Assembly: GCA_903861575.1 (NCBI GenBank) | Contig: CAIOUR010000183.1 | Span: 1-43,317 of the forward strand | DNA: 43,317 bases | From: an uncultured beta proteobacterium | GTDB lineage: Bacteria > Pseudomonadota > Gammaproteobacteria > Burkholderiales > Burkholderiaceae_C | Reading direction: 5' to 3' | Part shown: positions 29,990 through 37,994 of the stretch, piece after piece | Position numbering within the stretch: position 1 is the stretch's first letter | Layout: the number at the start of each line of letters is the position of its first letter | Position numbers and translations under genes: made by a program | The notes under the pieces: model-generated | The model's input: the letters and a program-made list of their open reading frames with translations, nothing else | The model's database searches: none | Told to the model about the DNA's origin: nothing

Positions 29990-30105
29990 ATGCCGTGACG
30001 AGCAATAACCGGGCCAGCCAAGATATTGCCGCCGTGTTGCCCCACCGGCCACCCGGGCGCTACAGTCCAGCGACTAGCAACAATACCCTTCGCGCCGTCG
30101 CCGCC

Positions 30106-31134
30106 ATGAAAGCCAGCCCTGACATACCGCACCGTCGTGCTTCCGCACAGCCGCGCCAATCGCTGGTCTTCGGCCTGGTAGTAGTCCCGAATTTTTCGCT
30201 GATTGCGCTGCGTGCCTGTGTCGATCCGCTGCGGCTGGCCAACCAGGTCTTGGGGCACACCGCCTACCGTTCGGTATTGCTCTCGGTGGACGGCGGGCTG
30301 GTGCCTTCGAGCGACGGTATTCAGGTGATGACCCAGCACAGCCTGGCGGGGGCACCTGCGCTGGACGTGGTTTTTGTGATCGGACCCAACCCGATCCCCA
30401 AGCGGGGCTTGCGCCCGCTCACGCTATGGCTGAAAAAAATGGCAGCCAGCGGCATTCCGCTGGGCGGCATCGATACCGGCGCCTACCTGATGGCGCAGGC
30501 CGGCTTGCTGGACGGCTACCGCAGCACCATCCACTGGGAGGACCATGAGGCCTTAGCTGAACAGTTCCCCAAAATCATCGTGACCCAGCATTTTTTTGAA
30601 GTCGACCGCGACCGCTATACCTGCAGCGGCGGCGTGGCGCCGCTGGACTTGATGACCTATCTGCTCACGCAAGCGCCCGGCAGCCGCCAACTGGCCAACG
30701 AGGTTGCGAACCTGCTGGTGGTCGAACGGCGTAGCCTGACGGATGTGCAAACCGTGTCCATCATCCACCAGAGCCGGGTCACCCACCCGAAGGCGGTCGA
30801 GGCGCTGCGCTTGATGGAAGCCAATGTGGCCGAACCGCTGACCATGGCCGAGGTCGCGCAGTTCACCGGCATGGCCTTGCGCAGCTTGCAACGTTTATTC
30901 AAAACCAAATTTGGCAAAACGCCGGAGCGTGTGTATTTGGACATCCGCCTGGCACAGGCGCGCTTGTTGGTGCAACGCAGCGACAAAAGCATCCGAGAGA
31001 TCGCCGCGGCAACTGGTTTTGCATCCCCATCGCACCTGACCGCCCGGTACACGCCCCGTTACGGCGCTTCGCCCCAAAAAGAACGGGAGAAGCGGGATGT
31101 AGGATTGGCATTTAAGGAAAGAATGTTGTCGTAA
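30106..31134 (+). CDS. GlxA/GATR-type AraC-family transcriptional regulator (DJ-1/PfpI domain plus AraC HTH), CahR/GbdR-like
   Basis: FGLVVVPNFSLIALRACVDPLRLANQVLG...GGIDTGAYLMAQAGLLDGYRSTIHWEDHEAL...CSGGVAPLDLM; C-terminal LTMAEVAQFTGMALRSLQRLFKTKFGKTPERVYLDIRLAQARLL. Start placed at ATG 30106 (track start 29995). Confidence 0.9.
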   Translation: MKASPDIPHRRASAQPRQSLVFGLVVVPNFSLIALRACVDPLRLANQVLGHTAYRSVLLSVDGGLVPSSDGIQVMTQHSLAGAPALDVVFVIGPNPIPKRGLRPLTLWLKKMAASGIPLGGIDTGAYLMAQAGLLDGYRSTIHWEDHEALAEQFPKIIVTQHFFEVDRDRYTCSGGVAPLDLMTYLLTQAPGSRQLANEVANLLVVERRSLTDVQTVSIIHQSRVTHPKAVEALRLMEANVAEPLTMAEVAQFTGMALRSLQRLFKTKFGKTPERVYLDIRLAQARLLVQRSDKSIREIAAATGFASPSHLTARYTPRYGASPQKEREKRDVGLAFKERMLS

Positions 31135-31206
31135 TAGAGAAACCATCGACCGGCGCTTGCCGCAATACTGAACGACTTTCGACCCGTCCATTAGGAGTTT
31201 TCCGCC

Positions 31207-32418
31207 ATGACCATGCCCGACCTGATTTACATCGACAACGGCGAGCGCGTTCGCCACAGCTTCTCAGACGCCGAGTACGCCAACCGCATCGGCAAGCTGC
31301 GCGCCATGATGGCCAAAAAAGGGGTGGACACGGTGCTGTTCACCAGCTACCACAACATCAATTACTACAGCGACTTTTTGTACTGCTCCTTCGGCCGCTT
31401 CTACGGCCTGGTGGTGACGCAGGACAAGACCGTGATCATTGCGGCCAACATCGACGGTGGCCAACCCTGGCGCAAGGGTGTTTGCGACCGCGCAGTGATC
31501 TACACCGACTGGCAGCAAGGCAATTACTTCCGTGCGCTGGCGCAAGAGATTCCCAACAAGGGCCGCGTGGGCCTGGAATTTGACCACCTGCCGCTGGAGC
31601 GCATGGACAAGATCAAAGCCGCCCTGCCCGGCGTGGAGTTCGTGAACATTGCGGCGGACTGCATGCGGATGCGCATGGTCAAGTCCGCCGAAGAAATCGA
31701 ATTCATCAAAAACGGCGCACAGGTGTGCGACGTGGGCGGCGCCGCTTTGGTAGCCGCCGTGCACGCGGGCGTGCCCGAACACGAAGTGGCCTTGGCCTCG
31801 ACCCAAGCCATGGTGCGCGAGATTGCCAAGCGCTACCCGCACACCGAGCTGATGGACACCTGGACCTGGTTCCAGTCCGGCATCAACACCGACGGCGCGC
31901 ACAACCCGGTGACCACCCGCAAAGTGCAGCACGGCGACATCCTGAGCCTGAACTGCTTCTCGATGATTTCGGGCTACTACACCGCGCTGGAGCGCACGCT
32001 GTTCTTCGGCGATGTGGATCCGGCGTCACTGCGGCTGTGGGAAATCAATGTGCGCGTGCACGAAGAGGGGCAAAAGCTGGTCAAGCCCGGCGTGCGCTGC
32101 TGCGATGTGGCCCATGCGCTGAACAGGATTTATGAAGAGTACGATGTGCTGAAGTACCGCACCTTCGGTTACGGGCACTCTTTTGGTGTGCTCTCGCACT
32201 ATTACGGGCGCGAAGCGGGCCTGGAATTCCGCGAAGACATCGATACGGTGCTCGAACCGGGCATGGTGGTGTCGATAGAACCGATGATCATGTTGCCCGA
32301 AGGCATGCCCGGCGCGGGTGGTTACCGAGAGCACGACATCCTCGTCGTCACGGATACAGGCCATGTGAACATTACGGGTTTCCCCTATGGTCCCAAGCAC
32401 AACGTTATCCCCGCGTAG
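31207..32418 (+). CDS. Creatinase (creatine amidinohydrolase, M24-fold)
   Basis: 403 aa closely resembling remembered Pseudomonas creatinase: LFTSYHNINYYSDFLYCSFGRFYGLVVT, IDGGQPWR, ELMDTWTWFQSGINTDGAHNPVTTRKVQHGDILSLNCF, YYTALERTLF, YRTFGYGHSFGVLSHYYGREAGLE, MIMLPEGMPGAGGYREHDIL. Confidence 0.93.
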   Translation: MTMPDLIYIDNGERVRHSFSDAEYANRIGKLRAMMAKKGVDTVLFTSYHNINYYSDFLYCSFGRFYGLVVTQDKTVIIAANIDGGQPWRKGVCDRAVIYTDWQQGNYFRALAQEIPNKGRVGLEFDHLPLERMDKIKAALPGVEFVNIAADCMRMRMVKSAEEIEFIKNGAQVCDVGGAALVAAVHAGVPEHEVALASTQAMVREIAKRYPHTELMDTWTWFQSGINTDGAHNPVTTRKVQHGDILSLNCFSMISGYYTALERTLFFGDVDPASLRLWEINVRVHEEGQKLVKPGVRCCDVAHALNRIYEEYDVLKYRTFGYGHSFGVLSHYYGREAGLEFREDIDTVLEPGMVVSIEPMIMLPEGMPGAGGYREHDILVVTDTGHVNITGFPYGPKHNVIPA

Positions 32419-32472
32419 GCACATAGTTTGCTAACCTTGAGAGCTTGACCTGAAACAAAAGAATTCGTACCC

Positions 32473-33558
32473 ATGCAAAAGCCTTTCGTCCGATTCGACC
32501 ACGTTGAGAAAAGCTACGACGGCAAGAACCTGGTGGTACAGGATCTGACACTGGATATTGCGCAAGGCGAGTTTCTGACCCTGCTGGGGCCTTCGGGCTC
32601 CGGCAAGACCACCACGCTGATGATGCTGGCCGGTTTTGAGACGGCAACCGCCGGCGAGATTTATCTGGATGGCAAGCCCATCAACCGCATCGCGCCCGAA
32701 CACCGCAACATCGGCATGGTGTTCCAGAGCTACGCGCTATTTCCCCACATGACCGTGGCCGAGAACGTGGGGTTTCCTTTGAGTGTGCGCGGTGTGACAG
32801 GCGAGGCCGCGCGTAGCCGCGTGATGGCGGCGCTGGACAAAGTGGGCTTGAAGGGCCTGGAGTCGCGGCGCCCAGCGCAAATGTCCGGCGGGCAGCAGCA
32901 GCGGGTGGCGGTTGCCCGCGCCCTGGTGTTTGAGCCGCAGCTGGTGCTCATGGACGAGCCGCTCTCCGCATTGGACAAGCAGCTGCGCGAGCAACTGCAA
33001 TACGAGATCAAACGCCTGCACCACGATCTGGGCATCACCATCGTCTACGTCACGCATGACCAGACCGAGGCGCTGGCCATGTCGGACCGGGTTGCGGTGT
33101 TCCACCAGGGCCGCATTCAGCAAATTGATACGCCCACGCAGCTCTACGAGCGCCCGGCCAATGCATTTGTGGCCCAGTTCATCGGCGAGAACAACACCTT
33201 GCACGGCAAGGTCAGCGCCATGCACGGCAACACCTGCGAAGTCACATTGACCGACGGCACGCGCCTGCCCGCGCAGGCGGTGGCTGTCAAGGCCATCGGA
33301 CAGGCCACGCGCCTGTCCGTGCGGCCGGAACGTATTCACCTCAACCCGGTTGCGGGTTCGACGGACACACTGGTACACGGCACGGTGGTCGATCTGACCT
33401 ACCTGGGCCGCTACGCCCGCTTGCGCATGAACGCGTGCGGGCTGGACGATTTCATCGTGACGCTTCCCAACGATGGACGCGACCTCAGTCTGCAAGCCGG
33501 CAGCGCCGCCACCCTGGGGTGGAACGCTGCCGATTGCCGGGCTTTGGACGGCGAGTGA
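32473..33558 (+). CDS. ABC transporter ATP-binding protein (PotA/PotG-type)
   Basis: LLGPSGSGKTTTLMMLAGFE, GMVFQSYALFPHMTVAENV, MSGGQQQRVAVARALVFEPQLVLMDEPLSALD, C-terminal TOBE-like region. Confidence 0.95.
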   Translation: MQKPFVRFDHVEKSYDGKNLVVQDLTLDIAQGEFLTLLGPSGSGKTTTLMMLAGFETATAGEIYLDGKPINRIAPEHRNIGMVFQSYALFPHMTVAENVGFPLSVRGVTGEAARSRVMAALDKVGLKGLESRRPAQMSGGQQQRVAVARALVFEPQLVLMDEPLSALDKQLREQLQYEIKRLHHDLGITIVYVTHDQTEALAMSDRVAVFHQGRIQQIDTPTQLYERPANAFVAQFIGENNTLHGKVSAMHGNTCEVTLTDGTRLPAQAVAVKAIGQATRLSVRPERIHLNPVAGSTDTLVHGTVVDLTYLGRYARLRMNACGLDDFIVTLPNDGRDLSLQAGSAATLGWNAADCRALDGE

Positions 33559-33588
33559 GGGCGGCATTTTTTTCAACAGGAAACCAGC

Positions 33589-34671
33589 ATGTTCAACAAG
33601 ATTCACCTTAGTGCACTCACGGTCGTTGGCGCCGCCGTTATTGCCATCCTGCCTACAACCGGCGCTGCCCAGCAAGCTTTGACCGTTGCATCCTGGGGTG
33701 GTGCGTACACCAACAGCCAGGTTGAGGCCTATCACAAGCCCTTCACCGCAAAGACCGGCATCAAAATCACCTCGGCTGACTGGGGCGGAACCCTGGGCGA
33801 AATCAGCGCACAGGTGAAATCCGGCAACGTCAAGTGGGACGTCGTCGACCTGGAAGCCGCTGAAGCCCTCAAAGGCTGCGAAGAAGGTCTGCTCGAGCGC
33901 ATTGACCCCGCCAAGCTGCCGGCCGGTGCGGACGGCACGCCTGCTGCCAAAGACTTCATCCCCGGCATGATCCTGCCCTGCGCCATTGGCGTGATCGTGT
34001 ATTCCAACGTGGTGGCCTACGACAAAGCCAAATACGGCGCAAACGGCCCCAAGACGCTGGAAGACTTCTTCAACGTCACCAAATTCCCCGGCAAGCGCGG
34101 CCTGAAAAAAGACCCCAGCGTGACCCTGGAGTGGGCGTTGATGGCTGACGGCGTGCCCGTTGCCGATGTTTATAAAGTGCTGGCTACACCGGCCGGTGTG
34201 GAGCGCGCATTCAAAAAGCTCGACACCATCAAGAGCAGCATCGTCTGGTGGACCGCCGGCGCACAGCCGCCCCAGCTGCTGGCTTCGGGTGAAGTCGTGA
34301 TGACCCACTCCTGGCACGGCCGTATCGTTGACGCCAACGTGAAAGAGAAAAAAGACTTCGCGCTGGTGTGGGATGGCCAAATCCAGATCCCCGATCTGTA
34401 CGCCATTATCAAAGGCACCAAAAATCTGGACGCTGCCCAGGAGTTTGTGCGCTTCGCCAGCAGCAGCCAACCCTTGGCTGACCAAGCGAAGTACATCCCC
34501 TATGCACCTACGCGTAACTCGTCGTTGGCTTTGATCCCGGCATCCAACCCGAACAAAGCCTACCTGCCGAACGCCGGTCATCCTGGCCGCTCCATGTCCA
34601 CGAACTCGCAGTTCTGGATGGAGAACCAAGACGACCTGAACAAGAAGTTCGCCGCCTGGTTGGCCAAGTAA
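33589..34671 (+). CDS. ABC transporter periplasmic substrate-binding protein (PotD-like)
   Basis: Signal peptide ending TTGAAQQ; LTVASWGGAYTNSQVEAYHKPFTAKTGIKI...KWDVVDLEAAEALKGCEEGLLERID. Confidence 0.92.
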   Translation: MFNKIHLSALTVVGAAVIAILPTTGAAQQALTVASWGGAYTNSQVEAYHKPFTAKTGIKITSADWGGTLGEISAQVKSGNVKWDVVDLEAAEALKGCEEGLLERIDPAKLPAGADGTPAAKDFIPGMILPCAIGVIVYSNVVAYDKAKYGANGPKTLEDFFNVTKFPGKRGLKKDPSVTLEWALMADGVPVADVYKVLATPAGVERAFKKLDTIKSSIVWWTAGAQPPQLLASGEVVMTHSWHGRIVDANVKEKKDFALVWDGQIQIPDLYAIIKGTKNLDAAQEFVRFASSSQPLADQAKYIPYAPTRNSSLALIPASNPNKAYLPNAGHPGRSMSTNSQFWMENQDDLNKKFAAWLAK

Positions 34672-34675
34672 GAAC

Positions 34676-35908
34676 ATGGTCGCCGACAGCACAACCGCCC
34701 TGGGGCAGCGCCTGCGCAAAGCAGAGCGGCGCGGCCACTTCTGGGCCTATGTGCTGATCGCGCCCCTGTTCCTGTTTGTCGCGCTGAGCTTTATCGTGCC
34801 CTTGGGCACGGTATTGCTCAACAGCGTATATGACCCGATCATTCCGGACAACCTGCCGCGTACCGTGCGCGCGCTGGATGCCTGGAATGGTCCCCGTGAC
34901 CAAATTCCCCCTGAGCCCGTATTTGCGGCTTTGGCGCAAGACCTCAAAGTCGCTGTGCAAGATCAAAAAGCCGGCGCCATTGCCAACCGGCTGAATATCG
35001 AGGAATCCGGCCTGCGCACGATTTTTATGCGCGCCGCACGCCGCGTCGCCGCCCAGGAAGAAGGCCCCTGGACCTCGTTTTTTGAAGCCGCCGACCCCGC
35101 CTGGGTCCAGCCGCTGATCTGGGGCAATATCCGTAACCTTGCCGCCCCCACCCATTCCCTGTTTTTCCTCTCCGCCCTCGATTCGCGGCGTCTGGCCGAC
35201 GCCAGCGTTGCCCAGCAACCCGAAGACCAGCGCATCCACATCACGATTTACCTGCGCACGCTGGGCGTGGCGCTCACCGTCACGCTGGCGTGTTTGGCAC
35301 TGGGCTTTCCCCTGGCATACCTGTTGGCACACTTGCGCGACAAGACGGCCAATCTGCTGCTGATCTTGGTGCTGCTGCCGTTCTGGACTTCGCTGCTGGT
35401 GCGCACCACCGCATGGATGGTAGTGCTGCAAAAAGAAGGTGTCATCAACTCCCTGCTGCAAGCGCTGGGGCTGATCGCTGAGCCACTGCCGCTGGTGTTC
35501 AACCGTTTTGGCGTGGTGACGGCGATGACGCACATCCTGCTGCCCTTCATGATCCTGCCGATGTACTCGGTCATGCGGCAAATCCCCGCCTCGTATGTGC
35601 GGGCAGCCCGCTCGCTGGGGGCCAGCCCTACTACCGCATTCCTGCGCGTGTATTTGCCCCAGTGCATTCCGGGCATCGGTGCCGGTGGATTGCTGGTGTT
35701 CATCCTGGCGCTGGGCTACTACATCACGCCCGCTTTGCTGGGCGGCTCGACTGACCAGATGATCAGCTACTTTGTGGCCGACAACATGGGCCGCTCGCTG
35801 AACTGGGGCTTGGCCTCGGCCTTGGCGGCGATTTTGCTGGCAGCAGTCCTGGCGCTGTATGCCATCTACGACCGCATTGCCGGTCCCGGAAACCTGAAAC
35901 TCGGATGA
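34676..35908 (+). CDS. ABC transporter permease (PotB/H-like) with large periplasmic loop after TM1
   Basis: FIVPLGTVLLNSVYDPIIPDN... then ITIYLRTLGVALTVTLACLALGFPLAYLLAH...RTTAWMVVLQKEGVINSLL...RAARSLGASPTTAFLRVYLPQCIPGI. Confidence 0.92.
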   Translation: MVADSTTALGQRLRKAERRGHFWAYVLIAPLFLFVALSFIVPLGTVLLNSVYDPIIPDNLPRTVRALDAWNGPRDQIPPEPVFAALAQDLKVAVQDQKAGAIANRLNIEESGLRTIFMRAARRVAAQEEGPWTSFFEAADPAWVQPLIWGNIRNLAAPTHSLFFLSALDSRRLADASVAQQPEDQRIHITIYLRTLGVALTVTLACLALGFPLAYLLAHLRDKTANLLLILVLLPFWTSLLVRTTAWMVVLQKEGVINSLLQALGLIAEPLPLVFNRFGVVTAMTHILLPFMILPMYSVMRQIPASYVRAARSLGASPTTAFLRVYLPQCIPGIGAGGLLVFILALGYYITPALLGGSTDQMISYFVADNMGRSLNWGLASALAAILLAAVLALYAIYDRIAGPGNLKLG

Positions 35909-36738
35909 GCGCCGCCCTACCCCTCTACACCACCCCGCTGCAACGCATTGGGCATTGGATTTTGTGGATTTTTTGTGCCGCTGTTTTGATTTTTTTGATT
36001 GCTCCCGTGTTGGTCGTCGCGCCGCTGGCGTTCAACAACGAGCCGTATTTTCATTTCCCGGTCAAGGAATACAGCCTGCGCTGGTTCCATGAACTTTTCA
36101 CCAACCCGGCCTGGCTGCACGCGATTTACAACAGCGTCGTCACCGCTGTGCTGGCCACCTTGCTGGCAACCACACTGGGAACGCTGGCCGCCGTGGGCCT
36201 GAACCACCACAACCTGCCCGGCAAGCGCTTGCTGATGGCCGTGCTGGTCTCGCCGATGATCGTGCCGGTGGTCGTGTTGGCGGTGGGCTCGTACTTCTTT
36301 TTCTCCAAGCTCGGCATCGCCAACAGCCTACTGGGCATCGTGCTGGTCCACGCTGTGCTGGGTATGCCTTTTGTGGTCATTACGGTCACAGCCACGCTCG
36401 GTGGATTTGACATGAATCTGATGCGCGCCGCGCGCGGCCTCGGTGCTTCGCAGATCGCCGCATTTCGGCGCGTCATGCTGCCCATCGTCTGGCCCGGCGT
36501 GCTCTCCGGGGCGCTCTTTGCATTTGCCACCTCATTTGACGAAGTGGTCGTCGTACTCTTCCTGGGAGGGCCAGAGCAAACCACACTACCACGCCAGATG
36601 TGGACCGGCCTGCGCGAACAACTCTCCCCCACCATTTTGTCCGCGGCCTTCATGTTGATCTTGTTTGCCATCAGCATGCTGCTTTTGCTGGAGCTACTAC
36701 GCAGGCGCAGCGTGGCATTGCGTGGCGTGGTGGAATAG
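35905..36738 (+). CDS. ABC transporter permease (PotC/I-like)
   Basis: FPVKEYSLRWFHELFTNPAWLHAIYNSVVTAVLATLLATTLGTLAAVGL...MRAARGLGASQIAAFRRVMLPIVWPGVLSG; 4-nt overlap with the upstream permease. Confidence 0.93.
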   Translation: MSAALPLYTTPLQRIGHWILWIFCAAVLIFLIAPVLVVAPLAFNNEPYFHFPVKEYSLRWFHELFTNPAWLHAIYNSVVTAVLATLLATTLGTLAAVGLNHHNLPGKRLLMAVLVSPMIVPVVVLAVGSYFFFSKLGIANSLLGIVLVHAVLGMPFVVITVTATLGGFDMNLMRAARGLGASQIAAFRRVMLPIVWPGVLSGALFAFATSFDEVVVVLFLGGPEQTTLPRQMWTGLREQLSPTILSAAFMLILFAISMLLLLELLRRRSVALRGVVE

Positions 36739-36777: not shown

Positions 36778-36854
36778 CGGGGTGTAGCTTAGTCTGGTAA
36801 AGCGCTACGTTCGGGACGTAGAGACCGGAGGTTCGAATCCTCTCACCCCGACCA
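36778..36854 (+). tRNA. tRNA-Pro(CGG), CCA encoded
   Basis: CGGGGTG...CACCCCG acceptor, anticodon arm CTACG-TTCGGGA-CGTAG (anticodon CGG), T-arm GGTTCGAATCC, ACCA end; C1:G72 typical of bacterial tRNA-Pro. Confidence 0.97.
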
Positions 36855-36986: not shown

Positions 36987-37994
36987 ATGCAAAATCTACT
37001 CGACCCAGCCATCCTGTTTTTTATCTTCGGCGTGCTCGCCGGATTTGCCAAGTCCAACCTAGAAATTCCCCAGGCTATCTCCCGGTTTTTGTCTCTATAC
37101 CTGTTGATGGCCCTGGGACTTAAAGGCGGTTTTGCCTTGGCGCATTCCGGTTTCAATAGCCAGATCGTGTTGAGCCTCGGCGCGGCCCTATGCATGGCCG
37201 TCATCGTTCCATTGGTGGGGTACTGGGTACTGCGCACATTTGTCGGTGGCTTTGATGCCGCTGCGATTGCAGCGACCTATGGATCCGTTAGTGCCGTTAC
37301 TTTTTTGACTGCAAAGCAGTATTTGGAAAACCAACATATCGCTTATGGTGGGCATATGGCGGCAGCCATGGCGCTGATGGAATCCCCTGCAATCATCATG
37401 GCGGTTGTGTTTGCCAATAAGCTGCGCCAGCGAGAACTTGGGAGGGAAACGAGTGTGAGCGACAGCACAGCAGCACGCGTTACTACAGCAACGAAACCGC
37501 AAGCCTCGCTAGGGAACATACTGCACGAATCTTTTACCGATGGTGCGCAGATGCTTTTACTCGGTGCTATGGTGATCGGCCTCATCACTGGTGATTCTGG
37601 TAAGGCTGCCATGCAGCCTTTTTCCGGAGATCTATTCAAAGGCATGCTGTCATTTTTCCTGTTAGACATGGGTCTGACAGCAGCTCGAAATATGCCCCAA
37701 CTCAAAGACAAGTCATGGTTGCTGTTAGCTTATGCGTTGGTAGGGCCCATAGTCCACGCCAGCTTGGCCTTGGGTTTGGCCTGGATGCTGGACTTACCTC
37801 CAGGCGAGGCAGCACTGTTAATGGTTTTGGCGGCTAGCGCTTCCTATATTGCAGTTCCAGCGGTCTTACGCTATGCCATGCCCGAAGCCAATCCCACGCT
37901 GTACTTTGGCTTGAGTTTGGGACTGACCTTTCCTCTGAACATTTTGATAGGTATACCGGTCTATACCCATATTGCAACCAAAGCTCTATCTTGA
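36987..37994 (+). CDS. Sodium-dependent bicarbonate transporter family permease (SbtA-like)
   Basis: LLDPAILFFIFGVLAGFAKSNLEIPQAISRFLSLYLLMALGLKGGFALA...AATYGSVSAVTFLTAKQYLE...GHMAAAMALMESPAIIMAV. Confidence 0.88.
   Translation: MQNLLDPAILFFIFGVLAGFAKSNLEIPQAISRFLSLYLLMALGLKGGFALAHSGFNSQIVLSLGAALCMAVIVPLVGYWVLRTFVGGFDAAAIAATYGSVSAVTFLTAKQYLENQHIAYGGHMAAAMALMESPAIIMAVVFANKLRQRELGRETSVSDSTAARVTTATKPQASLGNILHESFTDGAQMLLLGAMVIGLITGDSGKAAMQPFSGDLFKGMLSFFLLDMGLTAARNMPQLKDKSWLLLAYALVGPIVHASLALGLAWMLDLPPGEAALLMVLAASASYIAVPAVLRYAMPEANPTLYFGLSLGLTFPLNILIGIPVYTHIATKALS

Follow-up and report, generated by a model that had tools for sequence, protein, structure and literature searches.

The window analysed here, a stretch of 43,317 nucleotides, derives from contig C183 of the draft genome of a freshwater bacterium (2.46 Mb in 293 contigs, 99% complete), and contains six open reading frames that form one directional block on the forward strand. 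A sequence-only reading of this DNA had described six co-directional genes with short gaps and a 4-nt overlap, and our check of the reading frames reproduces both the arrangement and the coordinates; the intergenic spacings in block order are 72, 54, 30 and 4 nt, and the two permease genes overlap by 4 nt. The features are as follows.

30106..31134, + strand: GATR-type regulator, GbdR/CahR relative (DJ-1/PfpI-like domain plus AraC HTH), kept upstream of creatinase
31207..32418, + strand: creatinase (creatine amidinohydrolase), 403 aa
32473..33558, + strand: ABC ATPase, PotA-like with TOBE_2 (TIGR01187, 354.7 bits against a cut-off of 355.6)
33589..34671, + strand: periplasmic solute-binding protein (SBP) of GABA/opine type by fold, pocket and tree; predicted creatine receptor
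34321..34323, + strand: codon of SBP R245, the carboxylate-clamp position (Pf622 R205; PotF D247) in the pocket list of PMC12999171
34393..34395, + strand: codon of SBP D269, the cation-contacting position (Pf622 D228; PotF D278) from the pocket comparison and PMC12999171
34676..35908, + strand: ABC permease 1, PotB/PotH-like (the PotH/PotB models match residues 184-398 of 410 only)
35905..36738, + strand: ABC permease 2, PotC-like by profile matches
36778-36854: tRNA-Pro, after the block

The regulator is taken to start at the ATG at 30106, the longest reading frame beginning at a GTG at 29995. Pfam assigns Creatinase_N and Peptidase_M24 to the creatinase, ABC_tran and TOBE_2 to the ATPase, SBP_bac_8 to the binding protein and BPD_transp_1 to each permease, which is the make-up of a PotABCD-type importer, and the best NCBIfam matches are PotA for the ATPase and PotH/PotB and PotC for the permeases. 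Permease 1 has about 130 extra amino acids in its N-terminal half that are absent from E. coli PotB/PotH, and its subfamily relatives are similarly long. Just after the tRNA-Pro gene lies a member of the SbtA-like Na+-dependent bicarbonate transporter family (36987-37994; PF05982, E 7e-112).

The putative creatinase matches three solved creatinases over its full length, including P. putida 1chm (E 3e-185) and 7yto (E 1e-172), and the next family scores only about 1e-22. All seven of the residues F62, R64, H232, Y258, E262, R335 and E358, which we take to be the catalytic and binding residues of 1chm, are present, so that the earlier assignment of this gene is borne out and the enzyme is predicted to be a genuine creatinase. 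The same reading had proposed a GATR-type regulator with DJ-1 and AraC domains, and we find a DJ-1/PfpI-like domain (barely above the Pfam cut-off) followed by an AraC HTH; because the NCBIfam GbdR model gives 277.8 bits against an equivalog cut-off of 480, the protein is predicted to be a relative of GbdR and not GbdR itself. Among 420 matching plasmid records, 407 carry creatinase genes 60-80% identical to that of the window, and Klebsiella (264/420) and Acinetobacter (103/420) are the main genera. Other contigs of the same genome encode a creatininase, urease alpha and two sarcosine oxidase beta subunits (SoxB), all scoring above cut-offs, and the creatine pathway as predicted from these genes is complete. 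A dimethylglycine oxidase-like FAD/GcvT protein is encoded on the minus strand near the contig end (40820-43246); we considered and rejected it as the sarcosine step, as it is 4 kb away on the opposite strand at the contig end, and there are two SoxB genes elsewhere.

To describe the locus counts we refer to the window-type Pot ABC as ABC-A, and to a different Pot-type ABC as ABC-B. A scan of GTDB genomes yielded 79 creatinase loci, and it was accompanied by a phylum-wide sample of 398 genomes and a sample of 301 genomes from the window's own family; genes at high-GC loci were called with a codon-usage caller. The order GATR-CreA-ATP-SBP-P1-P2 is found again in freshwater Comamonadaceae and their relatives, at several loci with other flanking genes; as it recurs in other freshwater betaproteobacteria, the block is not a matter of chance. 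Of 110 distinct creatinase loci, 27 have ABC-A next to creatinase. Creatinase is also paired with an ABC-A type transporter, or with its SBP, at eight loci in four families of another class of the phylum, taken to be the Alphaproteobacteria, in varied order and orientation and with SBPs of 37-53% identity; the neighbours of the linked genes differ greatly, and ABC-A is absent beside many creatinases of that class among the 110 loci. Two Limnohabitans loci are more elaborate: L030 has GATR-CreA-SoxB-SoxD-SoxA-SoxG-ATP-SBP-P1-P2 on one strand with short gaps, and L023 has GATR-CreA-GlyA-Sda-SoxB-SoxA plus a SoxG-sized reading frame, followed by ATP-SBP up to the contig end.

Creatinase was detected in 32 of the 398 genomes of the phylum-wide sample, and the SBP family is present in 30 of these as compared with 47 of the 366 others (p 7e-22, uncorrected for shared ancestry), at a distance of no more than about 6 kb from creatinase in nine cases. 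Within the 301-genome family sample, SBPs of at least 62% identity are confined to the window genome, which has a single SBP of this family, and to the Piscinibacter-like genome G268, whose locus is the same as L021; both have creatinase nearby. A clear gap in identity separates these from 57 other genomes of the family, which have only paralogues of 40-47%. Conservation of the transporter beside creatinase had been named in the sequence-only reading as a test of creatine import, and the linkage, being kept in betaproteobacteria and in another class, does not refute it.

The binding pocket provides a second line of evidence. The GABA site of Pf622 is formed by W9, T13, F100, Y102, W202, R205, D228 and Y264, with D228 hydrogen-bonding the GABA amino group (PMC12999171). 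The matching positions in the window SBP are W36, Y40, I136, Y138, W242, R245, D269 and Y305, six of the eight agreeing with Pf622 or Atu4243; the Arg/Asp clamp and aromatic box of the GABA type are thus retained (W36, W242, R245, D269 and Y305), and the positions of T13 and F100 are changed, being Tyr and Ile in all of the creatinase-linked SBPs compared. R245 is invariant across all family groups compared, and D269 is replaced by Asn in some creatinase-linked SBPs. The equivalents in PotF are W37, W244, D247, D278 and Y314, so that the substitution of D247 by R245 is the sole change of charge, and would convert a cation anchor into a carboxylate clamp. An AlphaFold model of the SBP (pLDDT 88, pTM 0.85; residues 1-26, of low pLDDT, are a likely signal peptide) finds its best fold matches in SAR11 PotD with GABA (8jv1, E 1e-32), Atu4243 with GABA, and opine receptors, the first spermidine receptor ranking at only 5e-19. 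With Pf622/iGABASnFR (6dgv, 9d57), Atu4243 (4euo) and SAR11 PotD the window SBP shares the fold, the Arg/Asp zwitterion clamp and the aromatic box; it differs from Pf622 in having Y40 and I136, and in an operon context with creatinase and without GABA genes.

The model and the alignment therefore predict a receptor of GABA/opine type with a zwitterion pocket and not one of polyamine type. Creatine, a small zwitterion, carries both a carboxylate and a guanidinium group, and counted in bonds its terminal nitrogen is as far from the carboxyl carbon as that of GABA; the pocket by itself does not separate creatine from GABA or guanidinoacetate. The earlier placement of this ABC in the spermidine/putrescine family holds for its PotABCD build but not for its binding protein. 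E. coli PotFGHI and PotABCD (L153, L194) share the subunit make-up and the ATPase and permease families with the window ABC, but differ at the R245 position and in the N-terminal stretch of permease 1, and PotF and PotD are distant from the window SBP in the tree.

A third line of evidence comes from the transporters within 7 kb of creatinase at the 110 distinct loci. The MFS carrier CreT of C. glutamicum ATCC 14067 is required for growth on creatine, and a homologue adjoins the P. putida creatinase (PMC8864220); in the literature searched we found no other bacterial creatine transporter with knock-out evidence (PMC8864220). CreT resembles ABC-A in predicted task and in its place at creatinase loci, but is a single secondary carrier whereas ABC-A is a four-gene importer; the MFS proteins at creatinase loci score as metabolite/H+ symporters. 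ABC-A is present at 27 loci and a CreT-type MFS at 31, and the two occur together only once, in Piscinibacter. They are thus nearly mutually exclusive (Fisher p 8e-4 for loci with full flanks, uncorrected for shared ancestry), and a search of the window genome with the MFS proteins of other creatinase loci found no CreT-grade carrier, the best match being 34%. No ABC importer for creatine was found in the open-access literature searched; to this extent the earlier remark that none was known stands, with the amendment that an MFS carrier, CreT, had already been studied (PMC8864220).

Of 15 NCS1 permeases, 14 have a creatininase nearby, as do eight of nine ABC-B transporters, against only one of the 27 ABC-A transporters; this distribution sets the predicted creatine carriers (ABC-A and MFS) apart from the predicted creatinine carriers (ABC-B and NCS1). 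ABC-B is found beside creatininase and creatinase at L006:2458-7209, L019, L027, L028, L032, L035, L042, L044 and L072, and is a candidate creatinine importer. The sole ABC-A locus with a creatininase is L006, where a module of creatininase and ABC-B separates creatinase from the ABC-A ATPase inside the creatine operon, and after the module comes an 86-aa second copy of the creatinase C-terminus (L006:1127-8574); assembly permitting, this looks like a creatinine module inserted into a creatine operon. At five loci of the other class, Rhodobacteraceae-like (L163, L169, L170, L177 and L178), creatinase is accompanied by a conserved Dpp/Opp-type ABC with an aldehyde dehydrogenase near, and this is possibly another route for creatine or a relative; we rejected a Liv-type assignment for ATPase pairs beside some creatinases, as the permeases are of Dpp/Opp type in Pfam.

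These counts bear on whether the window ABC imports a different compound of the pathway, such as creatinine, guanidinoacetate, sarcosine or a methylated glycine. The window genome does encode a creatininase, sarcosine oxidase genes join the run at the Limnohabitans loci, and GATR relatives also control the use of glycine betaine. However, the one creatininase near an ABC-A has its own ABC-B, the window block and most linked loci lack sarcosine oxidase, and a GABA-type pocket would fit a zwitterion longer than an alpha-amino acid; we consider such a substrate very unlikely.

A second alternative arises from the SBP paralogues of 40-47% identity in Comamonadaceae, which are encoded in operons with a class III aminotransferase, an ABC, an arginase-family enzyme and an aldehyde dehydrogenase. 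The aminotransferase and dehydrogenase score above cut-offs as GABA transaminase and succinate-semialdehyde dehydrogenase (SSADH), and the ureohydrolase matches guanidinobutyrase 3nio (E 7e-149), so that this sister ABC of the same subfamily is likewise associated with an enzyme that cleaves urea off a guanidino acid, although the enzyme is an arginase-fold guanidinobutyrase and the window creatinase has the M24 fold. The GABA transaminase-ABC-guanidinobutyrase-SSADH operon is conserved in Comamonadaceae (L188-L193, L224-L243), and its ABC is a predicted 4-guanidinobutyrate/GABA importer. In a tree of 76 SBPs, the creatinase-linked proteins all fall in one clade of 42 rows (support 99/98) except for that of Caballeronia L047, and the main guanidinobutyrase-linked clade is separate (100/100); all 14 betaproteobacterial creatinase SBPs fall in one subclade and five from the other class form another. 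The 42-row clade also includes DHDPS/OCD/FAD oxidase, Rieske/PhyH and solitary contexts, and is thus not restricted to creatine, so that we deduce the substrate from the operon and not from clade membership; the neighbourhoods of non-linked SBPs of 50-56% identity are mostly uninformative. At one locus (L258:6199-9614, genome G473) three tandem SBP genes of the ABC-A family precede one ABC set.

That the window ABC transports GABA or 4-guanidinobutyrate, as its sister probably does, would agree with SAR11 PotD-GABA as the nearest solved relative and with the six pocket positions held in common with Pf622 or Atu4243. The block has neither a guanidinobutyrase nor a GABA transaminase, however, the tree split is supported, and the Tyr and Ile replacements are common to all creatinase-linked SBPs compared, which together make this very improbable. 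A true spermidine/putrescine importer lying beside creatinase by chance, to which the NCBIfam matches of the ATPase and permeases would point, is the most improbable of all, and we rejected it on the receptor site with R245 in place of PotF D247, with the PotF model barely matching the SBP (28 bits against a cut-off of 636), polyamine binders ranking far below GABA/opine binders by fold, and the creatinase linkage spanning classes.

We conclude that the block is very probably a creatine-use operon and its ABC a dedicated creatine importer; ABC-A is best read as a predicted creatine importer that belongs to a subfamily for guanidino and omega-amino acids. The inference of creatine import in the sequence-only reading is thus supported by the linkage, the transporter exchange and the pocket type. 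The gene identities, the conserved linkage, the pocket type and the exchange with a known type of carrier are computed observations, and from them we infer the substrate, direction of transport and regulation of the window ABC. Periplasmic creatine would be caught by the 33589-34671 protein, with R245 gripping the carboxylate, D269 the guanidinium, and W36, Y40, Y138, W242 and Y305 forming an aromatic box around it. The two permeases, powered by the ATPase, would carry creatine inward, where creatinase would cleave it to sarcosine and urea, and the urease and sarcosine oxidase encoded elsewhere in the genome would yield ammonia and glycine from these. The GATR regulator probably activates the block upon sensing creatine or a product.

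If this is correct, creatine is a new predicted substrate for the known Pot-type ABC family. We lean towards the broader view that an ABC subfamily labelled as spermidine/putrescine transporters consists of guanidino/omega-amino acid importers (for creatine with creatinase, and for 4-guanidinobutyrate/GABA with guanidinobutyrase) that take the place of the MFS carrier beside creatinase, and that some of what is read as 'polyamine uptake' in metagenomes from fresh and marine waters is creatine uptake. The window SBP might also serve as a scaffold for a creatine sensor, much as GABA sensors were built from Pf622. Roseobacter denitrificans grows on creatine without CreT, its uptake route having been left open (PMC8864220), and ABC-A is a candidate uptake class for such creatine users. 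It would also explain the 'polyamine' transporters of some creatine users such as Ca. Indicimonas, for which creatine genes and prominent polyamine transporters have been described (PMC11366302).
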